DNA from: a virus
IMG/VR virus record: IMGVR_UViG_3300007735_000723
Coordinates: 1 to 40,630 of that record
DNA: 40,630 nt
Strand: one strand, 5' to 3'
Shown: positions 1 to 12,743 of the stretch, one piece after another
How the letters are laid out: each line of letters opens with the position of its first letter
Numbering within the stretch: position 1 is the first letter of the stretch
The notes under the pieces: generated by a model
Told to the model about the DNA's origin: nothing
The model's database searches: none
What the model saw: the letters and a program-made list of their open reading frames with translations, nothing else
Made by a program: the position numbers and the translations under genes

Positions 1-66
1 ATCCGGGTTTGCTGGGCCAGCTACGTCTGGCCGGCGGTATCCGGCATGTGGACGGGATGTAGATTA

Positions 67-96
67 TTGGACGGGATATGGATTATGGGATATAAT
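67..96 (+). promoter_or_regulatory. Putative sigma70-type early promoter
   Basis: TTGGAC at 67-72 and TATAAT at 91-96 are separated by 18 bases. The ATG of the next ORF is at 106, nine bases after the -10, so the mRNA would have almost no leader. This matches the other early promoters in the window, although the spacer is longer. Confidence 0.5.
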
Positions 97-105
97 AGGG
101 ACAAG

Positions 106-297
106 ATGGACAGGAAAGAGAAAATTTCAAGAAGTTTGAATAAAATTAATGAAAAGTTTCACAGGCTCTTCGATTGGCTGACCTGCGAGGACCTTGGACG
201 GGATTGGGACGGGGTTGGAAACCCATTTGGCAATAATTGTCAAAATAATAAGAAAATTGTCGGACAGGATGGCAAAAAGAACCCCCAAAGTTCTTAA
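106..297 (+). CDS. Hypothetical small protein (63 aa)
   Basis: This is an open frame of 63 codons starting at the ATG that lies nine bases downstream of a plausible TATAAT. The N-terminal half is basic (MDRKEKISRSLNKI) and helical; the C-terminal half is rich in Asn, Gly and Asp and overlaps the GGACGGGAT repeats, so that part may be low-constraint sequence. I recognise no family. The promoter placement favours a real early gene. The repeats, the lack of a Shine-Dalgarno sequence and the odd composition argue for caution. An alternative in-frame start at 46 lies upstream of the -10 and is unlikely. Confidence 0.4.
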   Translation: MDRKEKISRSLNKINEKFHRLFDWLTCEDLGRDWDGVGNPFGNNCQNNKKIVGQDGKKNPQSS

Positions 298-546
298 AGT
301 GGCATAGAGGGGTCTAAAATTGTCAAAATTTTAGAGAATTGTCAATCTGTAGGACGGGATATAGGCGATTGAGGGGGTCAGAGGCCCTGAGAGGTGTCTA
401 AGGGGCTTAAAACGGCTCTGAGAGGCTTTAAAAGCGATTGAAGGGGGTCTTGGAGTTGGTCTGTAACTCATACCTTCTCAAAAATTCTCTAAAATCTTCT
501 ACCCCACTCACTCCCACATCCCCCCACTTTTACCCCCATAGAAAAA
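298..546. other. Non-coding repeat-rich region
   Basis: I find no convincing gene here. It contains a perfect 8-bp hairpin (TCTAAAAT at 313-320, loop of 7, ATTTTAGA at 328-335), two near-identical copies of GCGATTGA(A)GGGGGTC at 365-379 and 434-449, and several CTGAGAGG/GAGAGG motifs. The structure looks regulatory or origin-like, but no function can be assigned. Confidence 0.5.
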
Positions 547-571
547 CCCCCTCAGATTCTCTCTGAGAGGG
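547..571 (-). terminator. Rho-independent terminator (leftward)
   Basis: Read on the minus strand this is a stem CCCTCTCAGA / TCTGAGGGGG with a five-base loop, followed by TTTTTC. It lies about 25 bases after the stop codon of the leftward gene ending at 597 and would end the late transcript from 1306. Confidence 0.8.
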
Positions 572-596
572 CTTTCTGTTCTTGTCTTTAGATAAA

Positions 597-1151
597 TTAT
601 CTTTTGTATCTTGGATCTATTTTTGGCTTGACTGGAATACTTTTTGTTAATCCTGTTGGATTGCCTTCTAGATCAATCCCCGATTGTTTCATAAATCTCA
701 TTGGTTTACCACTATCGGTTTCTTGTTCAGTTGGAATTTTTTCAATTAAATTTGAATCACCTGATTTTGGTAGGCTTCCATATAGTTGATCGTGTGGTCC
801 TACCTTTGGCCTCTTTCCGGGTTTGAACAGATCAATTGGAATTTTTGAAGGATTTGATGGCGTGATTCCGGGTGTGAGTAATGGCGATGGTTTGCTTGGA
901 TCTTTTGGAGTTGGCTCCGGTTTTATTGGTTTTGGTTCTCGGTCAGCCGGTCTTGGCATTCTTCCTGGCAGTATGTAATCAGGTATTGGTTTTCTTATCT
1001 CTAGATCTGTGCCTGATTTTGAATCATATTTTGCCCCCGCATTGATCAAGATGTTTGTGCGTGGCTTTAGGCTGTATTGAACCTCCAAGATATTCAATTT
1101 TTCCTGAAGTTGCTCGGAGAGATTCTTGTAGTAGTTTGTTAGGTAGTGCAT
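597..1151 (-). CDS. Pro-rich late protein with N-terminal coiled-coil module (184 aa)
   Basis: The protein begins MHYLTNYYKNLSEQLQEKLN, a short amphipathic helix, and the rest is low-complexity and rich in Pro and Lys (residues 60-130). The N-terminus closely resembles that of the 468-aa protein at 30441-31847 (MDYLTNFYKSKAESLQEKIN), so both probably belong to one phage-specific family, likely virion or capsid-core associated (inference). A late promoter element sits five bases upstream of the ATG, so its mRNA should be leaderless. The gene lies between another small late gene and a terminator. No enzymatic domain is visible. Confidence 0.75.
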   Translation of the reverse strand: MHYLTNYYKNLSEQLQEKLNILEVQYSLKPRTNILINAGAKYDSKSGTDLEIRKPIPDYILPGRMPRPADREPKPIKPEPTPKDPSKPSPLLTPGITPSNPSKIPIDLFKPGKRPKVGPHDQLYGSLPKSGDSNLIEKIPTEQETDSGKPMRFMKQSGIDLEGNPTGLTKSIPVKPKIDPRYKR

Positions 1152-1156
1152 AAAAT

Positions 1157-1164
1157 TATTTATT
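1157..1164 (-). promoter_or_regulatory. Late promoter element AATAAATA
   Basis: Minus-strand AATAAATA lies five bases before the ATG at 1151. The stop codon of the upstream gene (1160-1162) forms the TAA of the TAAATA core. Confidence 0.7.
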
Positions 1165-1306
1165 CATTCCCATCTGCTTGTTCTTCTTGGGCGGTTCTTT
1201 CATCATCGGTTTCTTCTACTTCGTCCGTTGTATCGGGCTTCTTGAAACCCATTGGCTTGTCGATGTAGAAATCATAATTTTCCAGAAATTCTCTAAATTT
1301 TCTCAT
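1160..1306 (-). CDS. Small acidic late protein (48 aa)
   Basis: This short gene starts MRKFREFLENYDFYIDKPMG and continues into a very acidic, Glu/Asp/Thr-rich tail. It is supported by a late promoter element (CATAAATA) exactly five bases before its ATG and by its stop codon being built into the late promoter of the next gene. I recognise no family; small acidic proteins of this kind occur near phage head genes, but no function can be claimed. It is the first gene of a short leftward late unit and is divergent from the methyltransferase gene. Confidence 0.7.
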   Translation of the reverse strand: MRKFREFLENYDFYIDKPMGFKKPDTTDEVEETDDERTAQEEQADGNE

Positions 1307-1311
1307 GTAGA

Positions 1312-1319
1312 TATTTATG
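1312..1319 (-). promoter_or_regulatory. Late promoter element CATAAATA
   Basis: Minus-strand CATAAATA with five bases (TCTAC) to the ATG at 1306. It lies back-to-back with the early plus-strand promoter whose -35 begins at 1330. Confidence 0.7.
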
Positions 1320-1329
1320 GCGGTTTTGA

Positions 1330-1357
1330 TTGACTTTCTTGTGTGATAGCCTATACT
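1330..1357 (+). promoter_or_regulatory. Early sigma70-type promoter, leaderless
   Basis: TTGACT at 1330-1335, a 16-base spacer, and TATACT at 1352-1357. Six bases then separate the -10 from the ATG at 1364, so transcription should start at or next to the start codon. Confidence 0.8.
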
Positions 1358-1363
1358 TTCCCC

Positions 1364-2533
1364 ATGCGATACCTATCCGTGTGTTCGGGCATTGAGGCGG
1401 CTACCGTTGCTTGGCATCCGATGGGGTGGACTCCGGTTGGGTTCAGCGACATTGAACCTTTCCCCTCGGCGGTGCTTGCCCATCACTACCCGAATGTTCC
1501 AAACTTTGGAGACATGAGAAATTATGAAAATTGGAAAATCAACGAAAAAATCGACCTCCTCGTTGGAGGCACCCCCTGTCAATCTTTCTCAGTGGCTGGG
1601 CTTAGAGGAGGATTGTCAGACCCGCGTGGTGGACTCATGCTCACATACCTTGAGATCGCTCGGAGTCTCAGACCCCGATGGATCGTTTGGGAAAATGTCC
1701 CCGGTGTCCTGTCAGCAGACGGAGGAAGGGCATTTGGTTCCTTCCTCGGGGCGTTGGGGGACTTGGGGTATGGGTGGGCCTACCGGGTCATGGACGCTCA
1801 ATGGGTCAGAACACACCGGCATCCCCATGCCGTCCCGCAACGAAGGCGACGTGTGTTCGTTGTCGGATATCTTGGAGACAGCACCCGTCCCGGAAAAGTT
1901 CTTTTTGAGTCCCAAAGCCTGTCAAGGCATTCTTCATCGCGCAAAAAAGCGGGGCAAGGTTCTACCGAAAATTTTGGAGAATGCGCTGCAACTGTGTGTT
2001 CAAAGTGGAGCAAAGGAACCGGAGGCCCATCCGGGGACGAGTGCCAAAACCTGACTCTTGACGAAGTATCCAAGTCTTTGACCGCTCGGGGTCGTTCAAG
2101 CCACCGTGAGGATTCGGATACCTACATCCCCGTTCCCTACGATCTTTTTCAAATTACTGCACCTCTGAACGGTCAGAGGCGTGAACCCGGTGATCCTTGC
2201 CATACCCTTGCAAGAGACAACGCCTGTCACGCTGCCATCGTTGGTGTTGATGTCTACAACCAAACTGTTGATGGAGGAGTAGCATCCACCGTTACAAATG
2301 CAGCGGGAGGAAGCAATACTACGGGTCCAAAGGTTATTCAGACTCACATGGTTCGCAGGCTGACTCCCCGTGAGTGCGAGAGGCTTCAGGGCTTCCCTGA
2401 TGACTATACGCTCATTCCGTGGCGTGGCAAGCCTGACTGCCCGGATGGACACAGGTACAAAGCTCTCGGCAACAGCATGGCCGTGAACTGCATGGAATGG
2501 ATTGGTGAGAGAATCCAAGCATGTGATGCTTGA
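1364..2533 (+). CDS. DNA (cytosine-5-)-methyltransferase
   Basis: This Dcm/M.HhaI-family enzyme transfers a methyl group from S-adenosylmethionine to C5 of cytosine in DNA. Motif I (SVCSGIEAA, residues 5-12) binds SAM. Motif IV (GGTPCQSFS) contains the catalytic Cys72. Motif VI (ENV, 110-112), motif VIII (QRRRRVFVVG), motif IX (RECERLQGFPDDY) and motif X (ALGNSM) are all present and in order, with a target-recognition region between VIII and IX, so the enzyme looks intact. I chose the second Met (MRYLSVCSG) as start because family members begin there and an early promoter lies just before it; an upstream in-frame start would fall inside the promoter. It could hide phage DNA from host restriction, or protect it from the phage nuclease at 5767; the second idea is inference. 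The target sequence cannot be read. Confidence 0.93.
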   Translation: MRYLSVCSGIEAATVAWHPMGWTPVGFSDIEPFPSAVLAHHYPNVPNFGDMRNYENWKINEKIDLLVGGTPCQSFSVAGLRGGLSDPRGGLMLTYLEIARSLRPRWIVWENVPGVLSADGGRAFGSFLGALGDLGYGWAYRVMDAQWVRTHRHPHAVPQRRRRVFVVGYLGDSTRPGKVLFESQSLSRHSSSRKKAGQGSTENFGECAATVCSKWSKGTGGPSGDECQNLTLDEVSKSLTARGRSSHREDSDTYIPVPYDLFQITAPLNGQRREPGDPCHTLARDNACHAAIVGVDVYNQTVDGGVASTVTNAAGGSNTTGPKVIQTHMVRRLTPRECERLQGFPDDYTLIPWRGKPDCPDGHRYKALGNSMAVNCMEWIGERIQACDA

Positions 2534-2557
2534 CTTGCTCTGATACTGTGCCATACT
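2530..2557 (+). promoter_or_regulatory. Early promoter of the 2681-5305 operon
   Basis: TTGACT at 2530-2535, a 16-base spacer and CATACT at 2552-2557. The -35 overlaps the methyltransferase stop codon. Unlike most early promoters here, it is followed by a leader of about 115 bases before the next clear gene. Confidence 0.6.
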
Positions 2558-2578
2558 ATGCATGTTAGATGAATCATC

Positions 2579-2646
2579 ATCCCCCACAAGTATTCTGGTT
2601 TGCTTTTTTTACATTTCTTCCTGTGATAACCATGCTTGTGGGGGAT
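2579..2646 (+). promoter_or_regulatory. Long inverted repeat in mRNA leader
   Basis: ATCCCCCACAAG (2579-2590) is a perfect inverted repeat of CTTGTGGGGGAT (2635-2646), giving a 12-bp stem with a 44-base loop in the leader of the operon that starts at 2681. A 34-codon ORF (ATG at 2562) runs through it but has no recognisable product. It may be a regulatory hairpin or a stability element. Confidence 0.5.
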
Positions 2647-2680
2647 ATCATTATCCACATTATTGAAAGAAGGAATCGCT

Positions 2681-2875
2681 ATGACTAAGAAGATTGCAAA
2701 GAAGAAGGTCGTCACCAAGCCGCAGCCCATGATCCTGAAGTTGTTTCCTGATCGTGGAGTGATGGGCATCATCACGGATCTTTCGCTCATGACTGTTCTA
2801 ATGTCAGCTGCTGTGATGATGGTCGTTATGGCCGTAATGATGGCTGGCAAGATTACGATCATTGCAGGAAAGTAA
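2681..2875 (+). CDS. Small membrane protein (64 aa)
   Basis: The protein has a Lys-rich N-terminus (MTKKIAKKKVVTK) followed by a Met/Val/Ala-rich hydrophobic segment at about residues 35-53 (LMTVLMSAAVMMVVMAVMM), which should span the inner membrane once. The start is set by a good Shine-Dalgarno (AGAAGGAA) six bases before ATG 2681; the longer frame starting at 2636 lies within the hairpin region. It is the first clear gene of a tightly packed operon leading to the SpeD gene. No family is recognised. Confidence 0.7.
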   Translation: MTKKIAKKKVVTKPQPMILKLFPDRGVMGIITDLSLMTVLMSAAVMMVVMAVMMAGKITIIAGK

Positions 2876-2876
2876 A

Positions 2877-3050
2877 ATGAAAACTGCTACAAACAATAAC
2901 TCCACGATGTATGGCAAGTTGGAAAAGGTCATCGAAAAGTTGGATAACCTTTCTACCAATGTGATTGATGGCACCATTTCCGCCAACTCAATCTATGACA
3001 GAATTGAAAAAATTCGAATGGACATTGAGAAGATTCAGGAGTCTCTGTGA
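2877..3050 (+). CDS. Small coiled-coil protein (57 aa)
   Basis: This protein is almost entirely helical with a heptad-like pattern (KLEKVIEKLDNLST and YDRIEKIRMDIEKIQESL). AGGAAAG precedes ATG 2877. The stop codon overlaps the GTG start of the SpeD gene (GTGA), which indicates translational coupling. It has no recognisable catalytic motif; a role as an oligomerising partner is only a guess. Confidence 0.65.
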   Translation: MKTATNNNSTMYGKLEKVIEKLDNLSTNVIDGTISANSIYDRIEKIRMDIEKIQESL

Positions 3051-3454
3051 ACAATATTGAAAATCCGTTTGGTTATTCCTACTTCTTGGACATGTACGAT
3101 TGCCGTGAAGGTGCGGCAGATGATCTTGAGCTTCACTACCGCTTTCTTGAGCGGATCGTGGACAAGATCGGAATGACTCGGATGAGTCAGCCAATCGTCA
3201 TCCATGGACCCACTCGGTTCGGAAAGGAATTGTATCCAGCCAAGGCTGGAGTGAGTGGATGGGTTCCGCTGATCGAAAGCGGCATTCAGATTCACTCCAT
3301 CGAACCCACTCACTTCATCACCCTTGATGTTTATTCCTGCAACAAGTTTGACAAGAACATCATCTTGGAGTATAGTAAGGAGTGCTTTGGTTTCAAGCAG
3401 CACGAAGAACAGTTCTTTGTGCGTGGCAAGGGATACGGTTCCATTTCTGCATAA
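3047..3454 (+). CDS. SpeD-family pyruvoyl decarboxylase (AdoMet decarboxylase-like)
   Basis: This is a prokaryotic S-adenosylmethionine decarboxylase-type proenzyme (135 aa), which normally self-cleaves at Glu-Ser to create a pyruvoyl group and makes decarboxylated AdoMet for spermidine synthesis. The cleavage site is LIES|GIQIHS (Glu77-Ser78). His83 lies 5 residues and Cys98 20 residues after the serine, exactly the spacing of Ser63, His68 and Cys83 in the Thermotoga enzyme, so the machinery looks complete. It starts at GTG 3047 with the Shine-Dalgarno CAGGAG, overlapping the previous stop. Some SpeD homologues, including phage ones, are reported to decarboxylate ornithine or arginine instead, so the substrate is uncertain. 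No spermidine synthase is present in the window. Confidence 0.85.
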   Translation: MNNIENPFGYSYFLDMYDCREGAADDLELHYRFLERIVDKIGMTRMSQPIVIHGPTRFGKELYPAKAGVSGWVPLIESGIQIHSIEPTHFITLDVYSCNKFDKNIILEYSKECFGFKQHEEQFFVRGKGYGSISA

Positions 3455-3463
3455 GGAAAACAA

Positions 3464-3910
3464 ATGATCGTCAGCAACACTTCAACTCTGTTCAATTCGA
3501 ACGGTCAGTTCTTCAATCGTTCAGAGTATCAGGGATCGTTGTATCAGGAAGTGACCTTTGCCAAGGCACTCAAATGGGACAATCAGTTCACGATCACGGA
3601 ACCTCTGAACGAGGCTCTGTACAACAACACCATATCGAATTATCCCGTTGGTCCCAACAAGTATTTCATGGGATCGTTCGACGGATTTTGGATTCACAGG
3701 ATCTACAACAGAGGAAATCTTGTGATGACGGTTCAAAGCGTGGATCAGGAAATGTTCATTCCCGTTGCCCATGATCGTGTGGAGAGCATTGCAATGGCAA
3801 GTGGGTTCGTAGAACCCATGGGAGATTGTGATCCTCCCGATGTTCCTGCTCCCGGAGTCGTTGCAGTTCTTGGAATCGCTGCTATGTTTGGTATGCGAAA
3901 GAGAAAGTGA
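3464..3910 (+). CDS. Phage protein with a PEP-CTERM-like C-terminal sorting signal
   Basis: The body (residues 1-118) is not recognised. The C-terminus is striking: an Asp/Pro-rich linker, then DVPAPGVVAVLGIAAMFG and a final MRKRK. This has the three parts of a PEP-CTERM signal: a Pro-x-Pro-Gly-like motif, a short hydrophobic helix and a terminal basic cluster. Such signals direct bacterial proteins to the exosortase/XrtA pathway; the VPAPG variant is common in planctomycetes. No N-terminal signal peptide is visible, which is unusual for a PEP-CTERM protein, so it may be tail-anchored or act as a mimic. AAGGAAAA precedes the ATG. The gene lies in an early operon directly after SpeD. Confidence 0.75.
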   Translation: MIVSNTSTLFNSNGQFFNRSEYQGSLYQEVTFAKALKWDNQFTITEPLNEALYNNTISNYPVGPNKYFMGSFDGFWIHRIYNRGNLVMTVQSVDQEMFIPVAHDRVESIAMASGFVEPMGDCDPPDVPAPGVVAVLGIAAMFGMRKRK

Positions 3911-4317
3911 TGTCTGATTACCAGCCCATAGAATACCGCCTGCGCTGCCATACAAAGCGCACCGATCTCCCTGCGGATGTTCTGCGGGATATTGGTGAGG
4001 CTTATGCGGAGATTGAGCGTATTCGTAGGGAAAAAAAAGACCTCAAGGAAGCGCATGATGTCGTGCTTGAAAGGTGGATCGGTCACTACAGGAAGGCGAT
4101 AGAGGAGCGTGACGAGGCTAGGCGGGAGGTGTGCAGGGATGAGGCGTATCGTCCCTCTCCGTCACCACCATGCACGGCAAACCAAGTTGCTGATCGGCGT
4201 GGATGGGACTGTTTCAAAGAAATCGAAAGGCTGCGGAAAGAACTTGACGAGGTAAATAAGGAATGTGATTTGCAGCGCAACATTCCAACCGAAGTGCGAG
4301 ACTGGGATATTCGATAA
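3910..4317 (+). CDS. GWDC-module protein 1 (135 aa)
   Basis: The start overlaps the previous stop (TGATG). It carries helical, charged sequence with an AEIERIRREKKDLKEAH heptad region and one copy of a module that recurs in the next genes: ERDEARREVC, then about 20 variable residues, then RRGWDCFKE. A second coiled segment (IERLRKELDEVNKEC) follows. The module has one conserved Cys at each end, which could bind metal or form a disulfide. I recognise no function. It belongs to a cluster of four consecutive genes with the same parts. Confidence 0.7.
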   Translation: MSDYQPIEYRLRCHTKRTDLPADVLRDIGEAYAEIERIRREKKDLKEAHDVVLERWIGHYRKAIEERDEARREVCRDEAYRPSPSPPCTANQVADRRGWDCFKEIERLRKELDEVNKECDLQRNIPTEVRDWDIR

Positions 4318-4328
4318 AGAGAACATCA

Positions 4329-4514
4329 ATGACTGATAACACAGACATCGTTACATGGCTCCGCAGCATTCTGCACAATGACCGTTCCGTTGAACTTCGT
4401 TGTCAGGAAGCTGCCAATGAGATTGAGCGGTTGCGTGATGAACTTGAAGATGCTAAGATTCAACTCGCAAATATGGAAGAAGATTATTTTAGAATCAGGG
4501 AACACAATGAGTGA
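4329..4514 (+). CDS. Small coiled-coil protein of the GWDC cluster (61 aa)
   Basis: MTDNTDIVTWLRSIL followed by a heptad-rich segment (AANEIERLRDELEDAK). Its start resembles that of the protein at 4769 (MTDDIVDRLRSY) and both contain the AA(N/D)EIE element, so it looks like a shortened paralogue that lacks the RDEARRE..C / GWDC part. It overlaps the next gene by eight bases (ATGAGTGA). Phage proteins starting MTDDIVDRLR are common, but their function is unknown to me. Confidence 0.65.
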   Translation: MTDNTDIVTWLRSILHNDRSVELRCQEAANEIERLRDELEDAKIQLANMEEDYFRIREHNE

Positions 4515-4776
4515 TGTTGATTCAAATGGCGTAGATGTCCTTGACCGATTTCGTGCATATTCAGAGAGGTTCAGACAGTTCAGTATTGCTGAAGAAGTCT
4601 ACTTGGATACTCTTGAATATATCAAACTTGTTCGCAAGGAGCGTGACGAGGCTAGGAGAGAGATTTGTATGATTATGGGTGGCAAGGGTGGTAGATCATC
4701 GCACATCTCCCCGGATGCCATTGACTATGCAAAATCCCGTGGTTGGGATTGTTTCAAGGAGAACACCAATGACTGA
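4507..4776 (+). CDS. GWDC-module protein 2 (89 aa)
   Basis: The N-terminal half is variable (VLDRFRAYSERFRQF). The second half is one copy of the shared module: RKERDEARREIC, a variable stretch, then AKSRGWDCFKEN. It overlaps the next gene by eight bases (ATGACTGA), so the cluster should be translationally coupled. No enzymatic motif is visible. Confidence 0.7.
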   Translation: MSDVDSNGVDVLDRFRAYSERFRQFSIAEEVYLDTLEYIKLVRKERDEARREICMIMGGKGGRSSHISPDAIDYAKSRGWDCFKENTND

Positions 4777-5305
4777 TGACATCGTAGATCGGCTGCGCTC
4801 TTACGCAAATTCCTCAATAGACGGTGGGTGGGCAAGTGTTTTCAAGCCAGACCTAAACATAGCCGCAGATGAGATCGAACAACTCCGCAAGGAGCGTGAT
4901 GAGGCGAGGAGGGAAGTATGTGATATGCATCACCTGACTGGCTTTCTCGGAGGAGACTATGCCAATTCCCGTGGTTGGGATTGTTATTCCAATGGAGAAT
5001 ATAAATTCTCACAGTCTGCAAAAGATTTTGAAGTGTTTCTAAATGGACAGGGAAAAATTATGTCAGAAATAAATGAAAGACTCCGAAAGGAGCGTGATGA
5101 AGCCCGACAGATGTATTGCAAACTGTGGGAACTTCCATGGCGCACAGGTGGTATAAAGAAGGCCAAAGAGCTTGGTTGGGATTGCTTCAAGGATGGTGAC
5201 ATTCAAAGACAAAAAATATTGGATGAAATCACATCCGCAGAGAAGATTAAGAATGATGCTCTTGATCGACTTGCAAAACTTGATGAGGAGTTGGGATTGA
5301 TCTAA
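4769..5305 (+). CDS. GWDC-module protein 3, two tandem copies (178 aa)
   Basis: It begins MTDDIVDRLRSYANSS and contains AADEIEQLRKERDEARREVC followed by ANSRGWDCYSNG (first module), then RLRKERDEARQMYC followed by AKELGWDCFKDGD (second module). It ends in ALDRLAKLDEELGLI, an ending almost identical to the tail region of the protein at 6653-6982. Internal duplication plus the neighbouring copies show local expansion of one building block. Start 4769 was chosen because it overlaps the upstream stop and begins like the paralogue at 4329; the longer frame from 4679 is a shadow. Confidence 0.7.
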   Translation: MTDDIVDRLRSYANSSIDGGWASVFKPDLNIAADEIEQLRKERDEARREVCDMHHLTGFLGGDYANSRGWDCYSNGEYKFSQSAKDFEVFLNGQGKIMSEINERLRKERDEARQMYCKLWELPWRTGGIKKAKELGWDCFKDGDIQRQKILDEITSAEKIKNDALDRLAKLDEELGLI

Positions 5306-5338
5306 AAGGATTATATTCTTATAAATGCAATTGATGAT

Positions 5339-5677
5339 ATGGATGATTCTAATAAAAAATTTAATAAACAAGATTTAATAAAAATTGCAAAGTTGCAAAA
5401 AACTGTTTTAATCGCATTTTGCATCACTCTTGTAACTTGTTGTATCCCAATCTTGGGATTTATCGTTGCTTTATGCAATTTTTATTATTTTTATAAATTG
5501 CTTTGTACAATTAAACAATCACATGCTTGGGTTCACATAATTCTTCTTTTTATTCCACTTATATCTTTGATCGTTTATTTGCATTTTATAATAAAGGCAA
5601 CAAAAATACTTCAACAAAATAACATTCGCGTTGGTCTGTTCGGAGCCAAAATGTTAGACTTTGAAAAAATTAAATAA
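5339..5677 (+). CDS. Membrane protein with three or four helices (112 aa)
   Basis: Hydrophobic segments lie at about residues 22-50 (probably two close helices with a Cys pair, TCCIPILGF) and 65-87. The tail reads ATKILQQNNIRVGLFGAKM. The pattern of a helical membrane domain followed by an 'ATKxL..xGixVGLxGA' tail resembles small bacterial membrane proteins that I associate with planctomycetes and verrucomicrobia; this is from memory and is weak evidence. A weak promoter (TTGATC, 17 bases, TATAAA) precedes it. Function unknown. Confidence 0.6.
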   Translation: MDDSNKKFNKQDLIKIAKLQKTVLIAFCITLVTCCIPILGFIVALCNFYYFYKLLCTIKQSHAWVHIILLFIPLISLIVYLHFIIKATKILQQNNIRVGLFGAKMLDFEKIK

Positions 5678-5683
5678 AAGAAA

Positions 5684-5757
5684 CGGGCATTAGCTCAGCT
5701 TGGTAGAGCGCTTGCTTTGGGAGCAAGAAGTCGTTGGTTCAAATCCAGCATGCCCGA
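5684..5757 (+). tRNA. tRNA-Pro (TGG)
   Basis: Acceptor CGGGCAT pairs with ATGCCCG, D-arm GCTC/GAGC, anticodon stem CTTGC/GCAAG with loop TTTGGGA (anticodon TGG), T-arm GTTGG-TTCAAAT-CCAGC, discriminator A. CCA is not encoded. All arms pair well. Confidence 0.95.
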
Positions 5758-5766
5758 TTAAATGTC

Positions 5767-6369
5767 ATGAATCTTGATTTTCTGGATGATTATTGGATCC
5801 ACAACAGAGTGAGTGCAAATAAACACTTCACAAGACTCAACACAAATTTGATTAAATCTGTTGGGTGTCCGGGTCTTCCGGAAGATAGGATCAAGACCAT
5901 GTACAAAGGAAGCAAAAAGTGGGATCTACATTTTGCCCAAAAGAAAATTGCCATAGAATACAAAACAATTGCATCTGAAAGACAGCAACAATTTGTCGTA
6001 AAAGTTCATGACAACAAAGCACTTCACTCCAATATTGCAAGAAACATTGGAAACAGAATAGAAGAAGCACTTGGCAATTCCAAAGATTTGAAAGATCTTC
6101 ATCCGGACTATAAACTGGGATACATTCTTGTAGTGACAATGAAAAGGGAAGATGGAATGGTCGTCCCAAAGAAAATCATTAAAGAAACCATAGACACATT
6201 TGATAGAATGGTAAAAAACAATGTGTATGATTTTTTTTGTCCTTTGATAACTTTTGGTCCAAAGGATCACGAAGAACTTTCAAAAGATTATTGCTTGAAT
6301 AAATTTATTGAAGGCATAAAAAATTGTCCATCTGTTGAAATATCTCCTTTTGCTGAGTTTTTTGTCTGA
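5767..6369 (+). CDS. XhoI/PaeR7I-family restriction endonuclease homologue
   Basis: A 200-aa protein whose core resembles the PaeR7I/XhoI type II restriction enzymes. KKWDLHFAQKK-IAIEYK supplies a PD-(D/E)xK-like catalytic set (Asp53, Glu64, Lys66). The family signature of an Asn-rich stretch before 'NNRxEEALGxxxD' appears here as NIGNRIEEALGNSKDL (residues 93-108). XhoI and PaeR7I cut CTCGAG; whether this enzyme has the same target cannot be read. No cognate methylase is adjacent, but a C5 methyltransferase lies 3.4 kb upstream. It may degrade host DNA or exclude other phages. The gene begins ten bases after tRNA-Pro and no Shine-Dalgarno is visible, so the start (5767) is uncertain. Confidence 0.8.
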   Translation: MNLDFLDDYWIHNRVSANKHFTRLNTNLIKSVGCPGLPEDRIKTMYKGSKKWDLHFAQKKIAIEYKTIASERQQQFVVKVHDNKALHSNIARNIGNRIEEALGNSKDLKDLHPDYKLGYILVVTMKREDGMVVPKKIIKETIDTFDRMVKNNVYDFFCPLITFGPKDHEELSKDYCLNKFIEGIKNCPSVEISPFAEFFV

Positions 6370-6374
6370 TATGC

Positions 6375-6402
6375 TTGACTAAATCATTTTAAGGAGTACA
6401 AT
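6375..6402 (+). promoter_or_regulatory. Early sigma70-type promoter, leaderless
   Basis: TTGACT at 6375-6380, a 16-base spacer and TACAAT at 6397-6402. Six bases follow before the ATG at 6409. AAGGAG lies inside the spacer, upstream of the predicted start, and so would not be part of the mRNA. Confidence 0.75.
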
Positions 6403-6408
6403 ATAAGT

Positions 6409-6573
6409 ATGACACAGATAATGAAAAAACTTACCATTCCTTTAATCATTCTGTTTGCCATTAATCTCATTGGCTTTGCATTCCACAAGAACTATGAAGG
6501 AGCTGTAGTTGGCAGCACCGTTGGAATGCTTGTGGCTTTCCTTGCTCTTGAGATCAAGGCTAAGTACGAGTGA
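6409..6573 (+). CDS. Small membrane protein (54 aa)
   Basis: Two hydrophobic helices (LTIPLIILFAINLIGFAF and AVVGSTVGMLVAFLALEI) are joined by a short charged turn (HKNYEG), giving a probable helical hairpin in the inner membrane. It is supported by a well-placed early promoter six bases before its ATG. tRNA-Glu begins four bases after its stop and is probably cotranscribed. No family recognised; superinfection or lysis functions are possible but unproven. Confidence 0.7.
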   Translation: MTQIMKKLTIPLIILFAINLIGFAFHKNYEGAVVGSTVGMLVAFLALEIKAKYE

Positions 6574-6576
6574 ATC

Positions 6577-6650
6577 GGTCCCTTCGTCTAGTCGGTCTAG
6601 GACACGGCCCTTTCAAGGCCATAACAGGGGTTCGAATCCCCTAGGGATCA
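6577..6650 (+). tRNA. tRNA-Glu (TTC)
   Basis: The sequence closely follows bacterial tRNA-Glu: acceptor GGTCCCT/AGGGATC, anticodon loop CTTTCAA (TTC), T-arm AGGGG-TTCGAAT-CCCCT, discriminator A. CCA is not encoded. Confidence 0.95.
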
Positions 6651-6652
6651 TT

Positions 6653-6982
6653 ATGAACGACAATTACTACGGAATGCCAATTGAACGTTACGACTTCCTT
6701 ATGGAAGCCGCAGGACCTTGTGCTCACCTCAGCGAAGATGAAATGAAACAAGGGTGGCATTTCTGTGATGACTGGGATTATCTTCTAATCCATGTAAATG
6801 ATGTTGAATTCAATCATTGTAATTGCAAACACATGGAATCTTTCCGCACGGAAGAGCGGAAAAAGGCTCAAGAGGAAAGAAAGGCCAAGTGCAATGAAGC
6901 ATTGGACAGACTAGCCATCCTTGATGAAGAACTTGGCTTGGACAAATTGTTAAGGGATATGAGAGATGACACTACCCGATGA
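6653..6982 (+). CDS. Conserved phage hypothetical protein, GWHFCDDWD motif (109 aa)
   Basis: It starts at the ATG two bases after tRNA-Glu. It contains EDEMKQGWHFCDDWDYLLI, a motif I recognise from small phage proteins of unknown function, followed by FNHCNCKHM, a Cys/His cluster that may bind zinc. The C-terminus (ALDRLAILDEELGLDK) matches the end of the GWDC protein at 4769, so the two share a domain. The longer frame from 6509 runs through the tRNA and is not real. Confidence 0.7.
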   Translation: MNDNYYGMPIERYDFLMEAAGPCAHLSEDEMKQGWHFCDDWDYLLIHVNDVEFNHCNCKHMESFRTEERKKAQEERKAKCNEALDRLAILDEELGLDKLLRDMRDDTTR

Positions 6983-7211
6983 AGAATACTATAGTCTAGT
7001 AGCAGTCAAGAATTTTCTTTACGATCTTATGAATCCTGCACATACGCCAAATGTTTCGTCAGATGTAAGGGACAGGGCGCGTAGAGTGCTGAAGCATTTT
7101 CCAATGCAGCACAGATTGGATGAAATGTATAAAAATCACATAAAACCAAGTAGATCAATTCTAAAGGAATACAATAATGGTGGTGGATGGGGAAAGGGAA
7201 AAGATGAATGA
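6966..7211 (+). CDS. BPSL0761-like hypothetical protein (81 aa)
   Basis: The sequence NFLYDLMNPAHTPNVSSDVR followed by DRARRVLKHFP matches the pattern of a small, widespread phage and bacterial family ('LxDLLxPxxTPxVPxxVRxxAxxLLRHYP', BPSL0761-like). Its function is unknown. It overlaps the previous gene by 17 bases and the next by eight. The C-terminal tail is Gly/Lys-rich. Confidence 0.65.
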   Translation: MTLPDEEYYSLVAVKNFLYDLMNPAHTPNVSSDVRDRARRVLKHFPMQHRLDEMYKNHIKPSRSILKEYNNGGGWGKGKDE

Positions 7212-7386
7212 ACAAAAGTATGTTACCTACAAAGACATGATCATTACATTCTTGTTGATCGCTGCATTTTGGTTTTTTCACACTCTGCAGATGGATCGCA
7301 TGAATGACAAGATCAATGAGTTGAACCTTCGCCTCACTCGTACAGAATACATGTGCTATGGCACCGGACAATCGCAATCTAATTGA
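7204..7386 (+). CDS. Small single-span membrane protein (60 aa)
   Basis: Residues 8-24 (KDMIITFLLIAAFWFFH) form one transmembrane helix, followed by a charged coiled segment (RMNDKINELNLRL). The layout resembles phage spanin or superinfection-type proteins, but there is no diagnostic motif. ATG 7204 overlaps the upstream stop; a purine-rich run (GGGAAAAG) precedes it. Confidence 0.65.
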   Translation: MNEQKYVTYKDMIITFLLIAAFWFFHTLQMDRMNDKINELNLRLTRTEYMCYGTGQSQSN

Positions 7387-7410
7387 TCAATACTATTAAT
7401 TTTCTATATA
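7383..7410 (+). promoter_or_regulatory. Promoter of the homing endonuclease gene
   Basis: TTGATC at 7383-7388, a 16-base spacer and TATATA at 7405-7410. The predicted start lies within or just after the hairpin at 7388-7416. Confidence 0.5.
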
Positions 7411-7416
7411 GTATTG
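7388..7416 (+). promoter_or_regulatory. Hairpin at the ribosome-binding site of the homing endonuclease
   Basis: CAATACTAT (7388-7396) pairs perfectly with ATAGTATTG (7408-7416) around an 11-base loop. The 3' arm reaches the first G of the Shine-Dalgarno GGAG (7416-7419). In T4, such hairpins hide the ribosome-binding site of homing endonucleases on read-through transcripts. Confidence 0.55.
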
Positions 7417-7428
7417 GAGATTAGTTAA

Positions 7429-8193
7429 ATGAATTGGGGCAAAATTTATAGTGACTTAATTACTAAGGCACAAACTCGTTCACATACGACAGAACCAACA
7501 GAAAAGCATCATGCTTTTCCATATCATTGGTTTAAAATTGGACCTAAAAAACATTTTGACTGGTCTATTGTAAAATTAACTAGAAGAGAACATTTTATTG
7601 CACACAAACTTTTATGTCTTATATATCCAAACTGCAAAGAAGCACAAATGGCTGTTTGGAGAATGGTCAATACTTCAAAAAATAGACAAAAATATAATGT
7701 TACTTCTAAAGATTATGAAAAATATAAAATAACTTTTTGTAAAAGTATTAGCGAAGATAGAAAAAATGTAATTAAAGATAAAAAAAGAAGAAATATATGT
7801 TCTGTATCCATGAAAAATTTGTGGAAACAAGAATCATATCGTAAATTGATGTTAAATCTCAGACAAGATCCTATTAAGGATGGACCACGCAGAAACATTT
7901 GTTCACAACAAATGAAAAATAGAAATAAAAACGGATTAAGTGAACAAAGTAAACAAAGAAATAAAAATTTGAATCATATGACAGAAACACAAATAGCGCT
8001 TTTGAGAAAAAATCAAAAACAAGCATTATCAGGAAAGTTGCCAGTTGTATTTCTTGATGGGTCTACTAAATTAGTAACTAAAACTTTTTATCACCAAAAT
8101 AAAGAAAATATTTGTTTTCATGCGTCATCTAAAAAAGCGGCTGAACTACTTGGGAAAACTTTTGTTAAGAAAAAAATTAGATACAAAAATTGA
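7429..8193 (+). CDS. Free-standing HNH-type homing endonuclease
   Basis: The N-terminal domain has HHAFPYHWF and LTRREHFIAHKLL, the His-rich arrangement of phage HNH homing endonucleases whose core reads 'H..P...LTxREHxxAHxLL'. The remaining 150 residues are Lys/Asn/Arg-rich, with repeated short segments (RRNICSVSMKN and RRNICSQQMKN) that look like NUMOD-type DNA-binding repeats. The gene is more AT-rich than its neighbours, as expected for a recently moved element. It lies just upstream of, and overlaps, the SpoU frame, and carries its own promoter and ribosome-binding-site hairpin. Confidence 0.8.
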   Translation: MNWGKIYSDLITKAQTRSHTTEPTEKHHAFPYHWFKIGPKKHFDWSIVKLTRREHFIAHKLLCLIYPNCKEAQMAVWRMVNTSKNRQKYNVTSKDYEKYKITFCKSISEDRKNVIKDKKRRNICSVSMKNLWKQESYRKLMLNLRQDPIKDGPRRNICSQQMKNRNKNGLSEQSKQRNKNLNHMTETQIALLRKNQKQALSGKLPVVFLDGSTKLVTKTFYHQNKENICFHASSKKAAELLGKTFVKKKIRYKN

Positions 8194-8764
8194 TAAAACC
8201 TTTGTTGTAAAAGGTGAAACGAGGAACATCATTGATCACATGGCTTACTGGAAAGATGACGCTATCAGAGCTGATCTTGAGACTAAGCGCCATAACTTTT
8301 CTGTTGTGTGCTGCAACATTGGCAATGATTTTAATATTGCTACCGTCATACGGAATGCTAATGCGTTTCTTGCGAAAGAAGTGGTGATCTATGGGAATAA
8401 GAAATACGATAGGCGAGGGACTGTCGGTACTCATCACTACACCAACTTCCGTCATGTCAAAAGCATTGACAATCTCCAGTCCTACATTGAGGAAACTTTT
8501 TCCAAGCATGAAGGAAAAGTTAAACTATTGGGAATTGACAATGTATGTGAAGCAAAAGACATAAATGCATTTGACTTTGACCCAAGCGTGCATTATATTA
8601 TGATCTTTGGTCAGGAACAGATTGGAGTTCCTGAGAATGTCCTAAGTATGTGTGATGAGCTTTTTTACATTCCCCAGTATGGTTCTGTGAGAAGCATCAA
8701 TGTTGGTACAGCCTCTGGCATCATAATGAACAATTATTGTGCAAAAGTTTGTGTGGGAATTTGA
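8120..8764 (+). CDS. SpoU/TrmH-family RNA ribose methyltransferase
   Basis: A SPOUT-fold 2'-O-methyltransferase for tRNA or rRNA. Visible motifs are DFNIATVIRNANAF (motif 1), IFGQEQIGVPENVL (motif 2) and IPQYGSVRSINVGTASGI (motif 3), in the order expected for the knotted SAM-binding domain. The only in-frame ATGs are at 8120, inside the homing endonuclease, and 8237, and neither has a good Shine-Dalgarno. The stretch before 8237 (GETRNIIDHM) resembles conserved family sequence, so the true N-terminus may have been altered by the endonuclease insertion. The stop codon TGA is also the first bases of tRNA-Gln. An alternative start at 8237 would give 175 residues. Confidence 0.85.
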   Translation: MRHLKKRLNYLGKLLLRKKLDTKIDKTFVVKGETRNIIDHMAYWKDDAIRADLETKRHNFSVVCCNIGNDFNIATVIRNANAFLAKEVVIYGNKKYDRRGTVGTHHYTNFRHVKSIDNLQSYIEETFSKHEGKVKLLGIDNVCEAKDINAFDFDPSVHYIMIFGQEQIGVPENVLSMCDELFYIPQYGSVRSINVGTASGIIMNNYCAKVCVGI

Positions 8765-8834
8765 GGGTTAGTTCAGCAGGTAGAACGTGAGGCTTTGGTC
8801 CTCAATGTCGGGAGTTCGAATCTCTCACCCTCAG
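8762..8834 (+). tRNA. tRNA-Gln (TTG)
   Basis: Acceptor TGAGGGT/ACCCTCA, D-stem GTTC/GAAC, anticodon stem TGAGG/CCTCA with loop CTTTGGT (TTG), T-arm GGGAG-TTCGAAT-CTCTC, discriminator G as expected for Gln. Its first three bases are the stop codon of the SpoU gene. Confidence 0.95.
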
Positions 8835-8846
8835 TTGGAAATTATT

Positions 8847-9125
8847 ATGAAACAAATGAAACCTATCGGCAAATGGATTCTCGCAAAGTCTTTGATTGGT
8901 GGTCAGAAGACCACATCAGCGGGTATTATTTACAATGAAAAGTCCAATTCAAAAGTTATTCCAGCCAAGGTAATTTCTGTTGGCGATAAATTGACAGAAG
9001 ACATCAAAGTTGGTGATACGATTTGGTGGGATGTATCCAAGATCAAAGATGGTCACAATGGCCTTCATGTAGTCCACCAAGATTGGGTAGAATTTTTGGA
9101 GAGAGAAAATGGCAAAGAAGACTAA
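8847..9125 (+). CDS. GroES/gp31-like co-chaperonin
   Basis: A 92-aa protein with the Cpn10 layout: a first strand (MKPIGKWILAK), the mobile-loop region (GGQKTTSAGIIYN), then IPAKVISVGDKL, a 'VKVGD'-like IKVGDTIWWD, and a final strand (HQDWVEFLERE). In T4 and relatives the phage GroES-like protein (gp31) replaces the host co-chaperonin for folding the major capsid protein with host GroEL, so the same role is likely here. The start follows tRNA-Gln; the last bases overlap the next gene. GroES proper is about 95 aa, so the length fits. Confidence 0.85.
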   Translation: MKQMKPIGKWILAKSLIGGQKTTSAGIIYNEKSNSKVIPAKVISVGDKLTEDIKVGDTIWWDVSKIKDGHNGLHVVHQDWVEFLERENGKED

Positions 9126-9423
9126 AAAGAAAGTTAAGACCCTTCCGTTTCGCGTCAGTTCTGATCTCATGTCACTTGATGACAAGCAGTTGCGCGAAAG
9201 GCTTCAGAGAATGCCCGTAAACATTCTTCTTCGTGAACACATGGTTCTCTGCGAGGATCTGGGAAGAATGATTGAGAGAGATCCTGAAGGTTATTACGAC
9301 AACAAGGATTGGGCAAAGCCCTGTGAGATTGTTTACATGATCAAGGAAGAGATCATGAGAAAGTATCACAGTGTAATTGAGCAGATTGAGACTGTAGAAT
9401 ACTTCAGCGATATCGGCTATTAA
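9109..9423 (+). CDS. Hypothetical protein (104 aa)
   Basis: It begins with a basic stretch (MAKKTKKKVKTLPFRV), followed by helical sequence with acidic and basic residues (LREHMVLCEDLGRMIERD). It overlaps the GroES gene by 17 bases, with GAGAGAG upstream as Shine-Dalgarno, so it is coupled to it. No family recognised. It is the last gene of the rightward block; a strong hairpin follows. Confidence 0.65.
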   Translation: MAKKTKKKVKTLPFRVSSDLMSLDDKQLRERLQRMPVNILLREHMVLCEDLGRMIERDPEGYYDNKDWAKPCEIVYMIKEEIMRKYHSVIEQIETVEYFSDIGY

Positions 9424-9427
9424 AGAA

Positions 9428-9452
9428 ACAACCCCGAACTTCTCGGGGTTGT
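9428..9452. terminator. Terminator between convergent operons
   Basis: Perfect 10-bp stem ACAACCCCGA / TCGGGGTTGT with a five-base loop. On the minus strand it is followed by TTCTTTAA, a passable U-tract; on the plus strand no U-run follows. It separates the early plus block from the late minus block. Confidence 0.75.
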
Positions 9453-9482
9453 CGGACCAATAATACTCTTACTGGTGGGGTA

Positions 9483-9809
9483 TTAGTCTTTTTTCTTCTT
9501 TGCCAACTTGCGAAGAGTCAAAGCCAAACGAGCTCTCTTGCCCATCTTGCCGCCCTTTTGTGCAGCCTTTTCAAGTTTGGAAACTGGAATGTCCTTGCCA
9601 GCCTTGATCTTTAGAGCCTTGCGAAGTGCACCTGGCTTTTCAATTGCGGCTTGAATCCACTTCTTCTTTTCTAGAAGAACTTCTTCGTTTAGATCATAAT
9701 CCTCATCTTCAAAGAGGCTGTCGATGATGTCATAAGCGACTTCAAGTTCCTCTGAGAGAACTTGAACGGTGTGAACTAGTTCGGTAAGATGTTTGATGTA
9801 AGGGTCCAT
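9483..9809 (-). CDS. Basic late protein with PGALRKAL tail (108 aa)
   Basis: The N-terminal half is acidic and helical (HTVQVLSEELEVAYDIIDSL), the C-terminal half strongly basic. WIQAAIEKPGALRKALKIK followed by GGKMGKRARLALTLRKL is a signature I recognise from many phage proteins ('KPGALHKxLGV...KGGKxGxRAxxAxTLKKL'); it often sits at the end of virion or DNA-associated proteins. It has a perfect T4-type late promoter, so it is a late product. DNA binding inside the capsid is plausible but not shown. Confidence 0.7.
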   Translation of the reverse strand: MDPYIKHLTELVHTVQVLSEELEVAYDIIDSLFEDEDYDLNEEVLLEKKKWIQAAIEKPGALRKALKIKAGKDIPVSKLEKAAQKGGKMGKRARLALTLRKLAKKKKD

Positions 9810-9825
9810 TGTGTTTTCTTTTCTT

Positions 9826-9833
9826 TATTTATA
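9826..9833 (-). promoter_or_regulatory. Late promoter TATAAATA
   Basis: A perfect copy of the T4 late promoter -10 on the minus strand, 16 bases before the ATG at 9809. The short leader is A-rich (AAAGAAAAG) and may serve as a weak Shine-Dalgarno. Confidence 0.8.
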
Positions 9834-9834
9834 C

Positions 9835-10716
9835 TCAGTCAACATTTCCTACAGGGCCACGAACTAACTTATAATGTGTTTCAGCGGCTTTCATGAAATG
9901 ACCGTGGTGAGGATGTGATTCTTGTGCTGCTCTAGCGGCTTTTGCTTTCTCTTGCGCTGAAATAAGTTTAGATTGCATTTCAGGTTGTGATTGATACACA
10001 AAAGATTGTGATCTTTCCATTCCTTTTTTGCCTGTAACAGGTTTTCCTCCAGCGTAACCCATATGTGCACGATATTGTGCTTGCTTTTCTTCTGCATGAG
10101 CACGGTTCAAAGCGCTTAATTCTTCTTCGGCTGCTCTTGCTGTCAAAGCAACATTCTTATATTCTTTGCTTGGGTATCTCAGTCCCATGTGACCAGGAAC
10201 GTAAAGATCTTCTTCGGCATCTGTCTTTGTGGCAACATTTATTTGTTTCTTTGGATCATCGGTATCGGTGAAACTTACTGTTGCTCCGATATTTTCTTCT
10301 TCGTTCAACTTGACACGTGGGAATCCACCAAAAATTATATTTTCAGAAATTTGAATTCTTGTCCCCTGATCTTTGAAAGCCTTGTGATTCATGTTTTTTG
10401 TTTCTCCTAATAAATTTACTACAGAATTTACTAAATCAGTCTTTGTTGCATTTGCTGCCAATGAGTGAATGCTTGGATTATTGTAATTTGAATTGCCACC
10501 GACTCTGTAAAGAGCTTCTTCTATTTTCTTTCCCATTGCCATCTTGATGGCTCGGTCTTTTGATCCTAGATATTCTTCTTCAGAAGTTTCGATCTTGCCG
10601 TCCTTGTCATAATCCTTGTCGGCCATCTTTGACTTCTTGTGCTTTTTCATTTCCTTTTCAAGCAAATCAATGCGTTGAAGAAGTTGTTCGATAAGTTCTT
10701 TGTTTAAGTCGTGCAT
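9835..10716 (-). CDS. EF-hand-containing virion-type protein (293 aa)
   Basis: After an N-terminal amphipathic helix (MHDLNKELIEQLLQRIDLLE) and a Lys-rich stretch comes DYDKDGKIETSEEEYLGSKD, a canonical EF-hand calcium loop (D-x-D-x-D-G-x-I-x-x-x-E). Short EF-hand segments of this 'DYDxDGK' type recur in late structural proteins of marine T4-like phages. The middle includes GGNSNYNNPSIHSL and VYVPGHMGLRYPSKEY-like sequence; the C-terminus is Ala/Lys-rich and helical. A late promoter lies five bases before its ATG, so its mRNA should be leaderless. A capsid-core or internal head role is inference. Confidence 0.75.
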   Translation of the reverse strand: MHDLNKELIEQLLQRIDLLEKEMKKHKKSKMADKDYDKDGKIETSEEEYLGSKDRAIKMAMGKKIEEALYRVGGNSNYNNPSIHSLAANATKTDLVNSVVNLLGETKNMNHKAFKDQGTRIQISENIIFGGFPRVKLNEEENIGATVSFTDTDDPKKQINVATKTDAEEDLYVPGHMGLRYPSKEYKNVALTARAAEEELSALNRAHAEEKQAQYRAHMGYAGGKPVTGKKGMERSQSFVYQSQPEMQSKLISAQEKAKAARAAQESHPHHGHFMKAAETHYKLVRGPVGNVD

Positions 10717-10721
10717 AATAT

Positions 10722-10729
10722 TATTTATT
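10722..10729 (-). promoter_or_regulatory. Late promoter element AATAAATA
   Basis: Minus-strand AATAAATA, five bases before the ATG at 10716. It overlaps two bases of the upstream gene's stop codon (10728-10730). Confidence 0.7.
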
Positions 10730-11579
10730 AATTTTTTAAACTCAAAAATTCATCTTGTCTGCTCAATACATATTTATTTACTTTATCAAGATAACCCAAA
10801 TTTCTTAGTTCTTTGAATACCAAATTTTCCACAGAGAACTCTCCAGCCTTCTTTAATCCGGCTGAACGCATCTCTCTAAATTTCTTCTTTAATTTATCAA
10901 AAGACTCGTCATTTGAATTAGACGAAATCATGTTGTCAATTTTGTTTATAAAATCCGAAACCTTCAATTGTATTTCTGGGTCCTCCAGATTTACTTCCTC
11001 TAATTTTGGTTCATTCAACCATTGATCTCTCAATAAACTGTATGATCCCTGATTTACGGGAACTTGCTCTGACATGTCTTGAGCATAAATTTCTACATCA
11101 TGATCATAAATTTTTATATCATGCAAATTTGACCAAAGTTGTTTTTTGTCTTTCAAATATTCGTCTAACAATCCTGGACAATCAGCAATTTTAGATTTAT
11201 CTATTAAAATGTGAAGATCGATGTCTGAATATGGTGTGTAATTGAAATTTGCATTTCCACCAACCACAAGAATATCTTCAATTGCTTCATCTGGTATTTT
11301 TGCAAAATTGGCCCAAACTTTTGCTATTTGAAGAAGTTTTTTTCTAACTTCAATTTTTAATACATTATTTTCCCATAAAGCAGGATTCAATACATCATGA
11401 TATTGAAGAGTTAACTTTGAATCTTCTTCAAGAAATTCTTTTAATGTTTTTCTTTTCTTTTTGGAAATCTCAACAGCAGCCAATTGTGCAATGGCTTCCT
11501 TTTTGGTGGAATGTGTTCCAAGAATCTTCTTTCCAGAAGAATCTCTTACTTGCCATTTGTCTCCACGTTTTACAATCAT
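10728..11579 (-). CDS. Nucleotidyltransferase-fold late protein (283 aa)
   Basis: The N-terminal 40 residues (KWQVRDSSGKKILGTHSTKK EAIAQL, split here) form a small domain like those that follow 'Txx-KKEA' patterns. The main domain has DILVVGGNANFNYTPYSDID LH, with a Gly-Gly and an SDIDLH motif typical of the polymerase-beta nucleotidyltransferase superfamily; the Asp-x-Asp-like metal site is SDID. The preceding ALWENNVLKIEVRKKLLQIA is also conserved in marine T4-like homologues as I remember them. The substrate is unknown; DNA-, RNA- or toxin-type nucleotidyl transfer are all possible. It has a late promoter at the leaderless distance, unusual for an enzyme, which suggests a packaged protein. 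Confidence 0.75.
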   Translation of the reverse strand: MIVKRGDKWQVRDSSGKKILGTHSTKKEAIAQLAAVEISKKKRKTLKEFLEEDSKLTLQYHDVLNPALWENNVLKIEVRKKLLQIAKVWANFAKIPDEAIEDILVVGGNANFNYTPYSDIDLHILIDKSKIADCPGLLDEYLKDKKQLWSNLHDIKIYDHDVEIYAQDMSEQVPVNQGSYSLLRDQWLNEPKLEEVNLEDPEIQLKVSDFINKIDNMISSNSNDESFDKLKKKFREMRSAGLKKAGEFSVENLVFKELRNLGYLDKVNKYVLSRQDEFLSLKN

Positions 11580-11584
11580 GAAAT

Positions 11585-11592
11585 TATTTATG
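11585..11592 (-). promoter_or_regulatory. Late promoter element CATAAATA
   Basis: Minus-strand CATAAATA with five bases (ATTTC) to the ATG at 11579. It lies just after the tmRNA terminator. Confidence 0.7.
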
Positions 11593-11597
11593 TCAAT

Positions 11598-11632
11598 AAA
11601 AAACCCGGTTTTTCAGATGCGGGAAAACCGGG
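11598..11632 (-). terminator. tmRNA terminator
   Basis: On the minus strand, CCCGGTTTT pairs with AAAACCGGG and is followed by TTTTTT, a strong rho-independent terminator directly after the tmRNA coding piece and before the next late promoter. Confidence 0.9.
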
Positions 11633-11640
11633 AAACCCCA

Positions 11641-11924: not shown

Positions 11925-11928
11925 AAAG

Positions 11929-12495: not shown

Positions 12496-12546
12496 GTGCT
12501 CTTTTCTCAAATAACAATAAAAATGATTAATATTAATATTATGCAT

Positions 12547-12738
12547 AAAAAGGTAATATGGGACTTTAACCCATTTTCCAGCTTTTACGCTGGCGCATCT
12601 CTTGTCAAGACCGCGTGTTCACACCACGCCGATTACCGAAAGCGTAGCGAGGGACTTGCACCCATTCTCAACCCTCGGTTCTAGAAACCTAGGTCCATAT
12701 AAGCCTAGCCGTTTATCCTCAGCCGCTTGACTACACGT
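12547..12738 (-). ncRNA. Unresolved structured RNA with two tRNA-like modules
   Basis: There is no gene here. The segment begins exactly five bases after a late promoter element and ends in TTTTT. It contains two modules that each end in AATGGGTNNAAGTCCC, one base away from the standard T-arm GGGTTCAAGTCCC. Module A (about 12640-12735) can pair GTGTAGT with GCTACGC, CTAGG with CCTAG and GGTT with AACC. Module B (about 12552-12637) can pair GGTAAT with ATTACC, CCAGC with GCTGG and ATGGG with CCCAT. Neither has a proper anticodon arm. They look like decayed or specialised class II tRNAs; the true fold is not solved. Confidence 0.5.
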
Positions 12739-12743
12739 AAAAA

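Follow-up and report, generated by a model that had tools for sequence, protein, structure and literature searches.

Superinfection-exclusion lipoproteins, phage T5 Llp among them, are phage proteins that arrive at the cell envelope by means of a host sorting signal, and in T5 Llp this is a lipoprotein signal at the N-terminus. Tails of the PEP-CTERM/exosortase system (EpsH, Xrt; PF07589, TIGR02595) comprise a VPxPx motif, a short hydrophobic stretch, and a basic end, and the VPAPG form of this tail is common in the Phycisphaerae. The published model places the PEP motif where membrane and periplasm meet, with the helix crossing the membrane and the basic end inside beside EpsH (exosortase); a signal peptide is reported for 97% of PEP-CTERM proteins (PMC1569441). 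MYXO-CTERM/myxosortase and GlyGly-CTERM/rhombosortase likewise comprise C-terminal tails through which envelope proteins are sorted or processed (PMC11980579, PMC3237569).

Here, we describe a viral protein that ends in the three elements of a PEP-CTERM tail, in the same order and at similar length. It is encoded in a virus record of 40,630 bases that was analyzed as a whole (hereafter, the window). Unlike PEP-CTERM proteins, it is phage-encoded, lacks a signal peptide, and has a body unrelated to those of the host PEP-CTERM proteins that were found. It also differs from T5 Llp, in that an exosortase-type tail at the C-terminus takes the place of a lipoprotein signal at the N-terminus. The initial annotation had considered that a phage protein entering, mimicking, or blocking the host surface-sorting pathway would be new. 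Within a coverage that excludes most subscription papers, the literature covered by title and by the start of the abstract contains no phage PEP-CTERM protein; the passages considered in PMC12642866 and PMC12078418 describe none.

Results

Gene Setting and Layout

The window codes for a DnaB-type helicase, a primase, a thymidylate synthase, and a ribonucleotide reductase. We read the phage as probably T4-like; its primase is similar to primases from T4-like cyanophages and from phages of enterobacteria. On the + strand, the gene of interest is surrounded by small genes, tRNAs, and genes of metabolism, away from a phage tail gene on the - strand (13414-17730). Other genes in the window include those for a C5 cytosine methylase (1343-2533), a co-chaperonin (Cpn10; 8787-9125), and an adenylosuccinate synthetase-like protein (34460-35449, - strand; PF00709, E 3.5e-84, with a match to the PurZ model that is below its cut-off), together with seven tRNA genes (5684-5757, 6577-6650, 8761-8835, 12757-12988, and 35471-35543). 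A permuted (two-piece) tmRNA gene with the tag ATTKAAPMRMAA was identified at 11555-11954 on the - strand (ARAGORN; Rfam RF04321, 58.7 bits). A permuted tmRNA borne by a phage is notable and is a possible second host marker.

The encoded protein ends in ...DCDPPDVPAPGVVAVLGIAAMFGMRKRK (Table 1). An in-frame stop is present a few codons 5' of the ATG which, together with the AAGGA sequence, makes the start firm and an N-terminal extension impossible. Both sequence and hydropathy confirm what had been noted initially, namely VPAPG followed by a hydrophobic helix and RKRK in a protein without a signal peptide. Several small proteins with a (R)GWDCFKE motif are encoded at 3907-5305 of the window and in its relatives (20 compared loci), and members of this RGWDCFKE family are also found near the gene for the tailed protein in relatives.

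Table 1. Features of the tailed-protein gene and its immediate neighbors in the window.
Feature	Position	Strand	Remarks
Phage PEP-CTERM-like protein CDS, 148 aa	3464..3910	+	without signal peptide; relatives on 33 viral contigs
Body, residues 1-126	3464..3841	+	net charge -7; conserved FMGSFDGFWIH and FIPVAHD (alignment)
PEP-like motif VPAPG, residues 127-131	3842..3856	+	alignment
Hydrophobic stretch VVAVLGIAAMFGM, residues 132-144 (13 residues)	3857..3895	+	helical in each of the two low-confidence models
Basic end RKRK, residues 145-148	3896..3907	+	alignment
AAGGA, ribosome-binding-site-like, before start codon	3453..3457	+	read by eye
Upstream neighbor, S-adenosylmethionine decarboxylase (SpeD-like)	3047..3454	+	PF02675, E 9.2e-15; context only
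Downstream neighbor, coiled-coil-like, RGWDCFKE motif	3907..4317	+	cluster c1, 20 loci; context only

A Viral Protein Family With a Conserved Tripartite End

Relatives of the window protein were identified on 33 other IMG/VR viral contigs and share 36 to 72% identity with it. The alignment comprised 33 rows with the window included and L011 omitted as identical to L012, such that 34 contigs are represented in all. Each of the 33 rows, and each of the 34 contigs when L011 is counted, has kept the VP motif, the hydrophobic stretch, and the basic residues. Body and tail are thus kept together, and relatives that conserve the body without the tail, the pattern named beforehand as contrary to that reading, were not encountered among these rows. 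A single such protein was detected in the window and in each of three relatives that were read almost whole. One candidate locus (L219) was dropped as a chance pattern match, the only one among 22 new stretches in one pattern search, and some phage contigs were dropped because what the pattern had matched there was something other than a tail of the family.

The motif is VPxPG/S in 32 of the 33 rows (VPAPG in 23, VPAPS in four, VPGPS in three, and VPEPS and VPSPG in one each), and the remaining row has VPSAG. A hydrophobic stretch of 12-17 residues immediately follows in every row, compared to 10-14 residues in bacterial tails, and total tail lengths are 22-28 residues (median 24) in phage and 21-26 (median 22) in bacteria. 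The C-terminal cluster contains at least two K/R in all rows and at least three in 32 of 33. A net negative body charge accompanies the basic end throughout the alignment, and a second hydrophobic stretch resembling that of the tail was not detected in any of the 33 rows.

Bacterial Tails and Exosortase

A scan of bacterial contigs with the pattern VPAPG[AV]LAxxG returned at least 120 stretches, and 80 loci were examined. Judged by eye from record names, the 80 listed records included 70 from Planctomycetota (47 of them Phycisphaer-) and five with other names; this supports the initial view that the tail offers a clue to the host, here through planctomycete tails of the Phycisphaerae type. In the listed loci, 83 of 85 pattern matches formed a protein C-terminus that finishes in basic residues. 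A signal-peptide-like N-terminus, under a lenient rule, was present in 72 of the 83 proteins.

A check of candidate hosts for exosortase had also been proposed, and PF09721 was found in all 20 genomes drawn from the listed tail-pattern loci (13 of 13 and 7 of 7), although in one of them, that of L077, the pattern match is not a C-terminal tail. Eleven phage records, a number of them fragments, yielded no exosortase. A profile of the phage family matched 24 of 298 genomes in the class of G011, taken as Phycisphaerae, nearly always by the tail part alone, and 0 of 297 genomes in the class of G420 (Acidobacteria). Those matches inspected in the 298 genomes were host-type tails on unrelated proteins and were rejected as homologs of the body.

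Model Scores and Chance Controls

Searches with PEP-CTERM models gave a divided answer. At full length, the window protein scored 13.1 bits with PF07589 (cut-off 20.7) and 14.2 bits with TIGR02595 (cut-off 16), both sub-threshold. Its last 28 residues alone scored 17.5 and 18.3 bits, respectively, the latter over a TIGR02595 cut-off that was set for whole proteins rather than for isolated tails. The relative L221 exceeded this cut-off at full length (16.9 bits). The outcome named beforehand as refuting, no match by any PEP-CTERM model, therefore did not arise, although the full-length window protein stays below threshold. Among library models at E 1 or better, PF07589 matched 21 of 33 rows and TIGR02595 matched 16 of 33, while MYXO-CTERM, VPDSG-CTERM, and PGAP-CTERM models gave weak matches in a few rows.

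An HMM was also built from the 83 bacterial VPAPG tails, with L075 and L077 of the 85 matches left out by a basic-C-terminus rule. With this HMM, the window protein scored 28.0 bits and 18 of 33 rows scored at least 16 bits; the other 15 scored below 7 bits or not at all. The pattern behind the HMM resembles the tail of the window protein itself, which accounts for the low scores of rows with different motifs. None of the 3,544 control ORFs from phages and none of the 990 decoys with shuffled tails scored as high as 10 bits.

Conservation of the Tail Architecture

Close relatives share similar DNA as far as the helix; past this point their sequences diverge, several of them unrecognizably, and each version nonetheless retains a K/R-rich end. 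Basic ends were defined by a rule (at least three K/R and at most one D/E) that also holds for 4.9% of random sequences read until a stop codon and for 38 of 432 ordinary ORF ends. The rows are kin, so their basic ends are not independent trials, and the ends of L001 and L002, and likewise those of L221, L222, and L233, may be diverged copies. Conservation of basic ends despite differing DNA past the helix offers a direct handle on which parts of the tail are selected.

The proposition that the tail is more constrained than the body did not hold as a rule in Nei-Gojobori counts on 11 chosen pairs, which showed no stronger codon-level constraint on the tail. Several close pairs have more silent as well as more replacement differences there than in the body, and the DNA alignment explains this by turnover just past the helix. 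Amino acids of close pairs likewise vary more in the tail than in the body, so that what has been kept is architecture rather than sequence.

Just past the hydrophobic stretch, DNA diverges in close relatives among L001-L008 and L221-L234, and in L001 and L005 the divergence is located, by eye, just ahead of a tRNA-like sequence. This suggests frequent exchange at the junction where the gene for the tailed protein ends.

Signal Peptide and Body

We judged signal peptides by N-terminal 12-residue hydropathy windows and by the upstream stop in the window. A signal-peptide-like N-terminus was absent from all 33 rows, where the highest 12-residue hydropathy mean was 1.21 (0.38 for the window protein). 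Since a defining feature of PEP-CTERM proteins is thus missing, we do not file the phage protein as one, although it may still work like one.

Sequence relatives of the body were not detected in the phage records, plasmids, PHROGs, PADLOC, or solved structures, nor in bacterial contigs as searched with limited peptide patterns. A weak Pfam match to an RbmA-like FnIII domain in 11 of 33 rows (best E 0.024) stayed below the cut-off and was set aside. The two AlphaFold2 models, in which the body is beta-rich, are of low confidence (pLDDT 48.7 and 48.1), and a Foldseek search with the first returned nothing significant; we therefore claim no fold for the body.

Host Affiliation

The tail points to a host within the Planctomycetota, probably of the class Phycisphaerae. 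A tRNA-Gly in the window is 90% identical to one in the Phycisphaerae class (109 bits, 397 genomes). In the Acidobacteria class, the sole other class compared, the top match reaches 82% (68.9 bits, 299 genomes). Other observations count against a Phycisphaerae host or are neutral to it. The window primase is nearest to that of a Synechococcus phage (44%), the ribonucleotide reductase is nearest to those of phages of several other hosts (up to 55%), and a permuted tmRNA, of which the window has one, was over the cut-off in 0 of 61 genomes of the G011 class (Phycisphaerae). Given the primase and tmRNA results, the host is not proven. A DNA search of positions 1-20000 of the window against the 397 genomes listed mostly tRNAs and the methylase gene, and no spacer could be distinguished among the listed matches.

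Discussion

Mimicry of a host PEP-CTERM tail by the phage C-terminus is, by sequence comparison, well supported. We regard it as an evenly balanced proposition that the C-terminus is a selected mimic and that the protein acts as an exosortase substrate or competitor. Favoring this reading are the presence of the tail in every row, the score of the window protein with the bacterial-tail HMM, the C-terminal place and basic end of nearly all bacterial pattern matches, the bacterial geometry of the tail, exosortase in all genomes checked, basic ends that persist where the DNA past the helix differs, and a negatively charged body joined to a basic end. Weighing against it are the missing signal peptide, full-length scores below curated cut-offs, the 15 of 33 rows that score low with the HMM, the greater amino-acid change in the tail than in the body of close pairs, and the primase and tmRNA results on the host.

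The substrate model is challenged above all by the absent signal peptide, which makes simple sorting in the manner of a host PEP-CTERM protein less likely. A body of about 125 residues without a signal peptide may stay in the cytosol, or may fold before its N-terminal tail could be translocated. The same absence, and a sole hydrophobic stretch at the C-terminus, would be expected of a plain membrane anchor, in which a host-like tail, captured or drifted, keeps a cytosolic body tethered at the cytoplasmic membrane, on its inner side, and exosortase is uninvolved; the freer sequence of the tail relative to the body in close pairs agrees with this as well. Such an anchor, however, needs neither a VPxPG/S motif, yet this is kept in all rows but one, nor a stretch as short as that observed, near the bacterial range, and basic residues at the extreme C-terminus disfavor a tail-anchored, N-inside topology under the positive-inside rule. 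We consider it unlikely, albeit a serious contender. Exposure from outside would also remove the need for a signal peptide if the protein were a packaged virion component or an injected protein whose tail helps it act at the next host's envelope during entry. The position of the gene, among small, tRNA, and metabolism genes and on the strand opposite to the distant phage tail gene, and the lack of a PHROG match argue against this, and we deem it improbable.

The tail could instead be a handle for another host system, such as a rhombosortase- or myxosortase-like protease or a quality-control protease. Weak matches to MYXO-CTERM, VPDSG-CTERM, and PGAP-CTERM models would accord with this, but PEP-CTERM models gave the commonest matches, and bacteria with the same tails have exosortase. 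The phage family shows a likeness to the MYXO-CTERM and GlyGly-CTERM systems in having a C-terminal tail, with only weak matches to MYXO-CTERM, and the signature motifs of both systems differ from that of the phage tail. This reading is very improbable in our estimation. Convergence without function, in which proline, a hydrophobic stretch, and a basic end co-occur by chance, could account for sub-threshold scores at full length, and the basic-end rule taken alone is satisfied by ordinary ORFs. Retention of the tail across the whole alignment, the failure of any control ORF or shuffled tail to reach 10 bits where the window protein reaches 28, and basic ends that persist where the DNA past the helix differs already disfavor it, and it is the least probable of the readings considered.

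With a selected mimic of the host tail as the preferred reading, we infer that the protein inserts into the membrane and contacts exosortase. The hydrophobic stretch would insert into the cytoplasmic membrane and, following the positive-inside rule, leave the basic end on the inside. The acidic body would be carried to, or held on, the outer side independently of a Sec signal peptide, N-tail translocation being one example of how this could happen. Some membrane proteins are known to translocate an N-terminal tail although they lack a signal peptide. Because its end is basic and its body acidic, the phage protein fits the published orientation, with the end inside and the body outside. The PEP-like motif would then be presented to the host exosortase. 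The protein might be processed and sorted outward, where it could, for example, alter the surface of the infected cell or exclude other phages; alternatively, it might occupy exosortase as a competitor. The initial interpretation is partly supported: the PEP-CTERM layout of the end, its conservation across the phage family, and the host clue hold, and the protein may, as proposed, enter, functionally mimic, or block the host pathway.

The titles of the literature on planctomycete phages that could be covered include none on an isolated planctomycete phage. The broader proposition, that T4-like phages of Planctomycetota put a tailed protein without a signal peptide in the host envelope and thereby hijack or jam the exosortase pathway, is plausible but falls somewhat short of an even prospect. 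If true, it would identify a virus family that exploits the exosortase/PEP-CTERM pathway by a signal-peptide-independent route and would provide a small natural probe of how exosortase recognizes its substrates. The tail also offers a host marker for an uncultured T4-like phage group, pointing toward phages that infect Planctomycetota.
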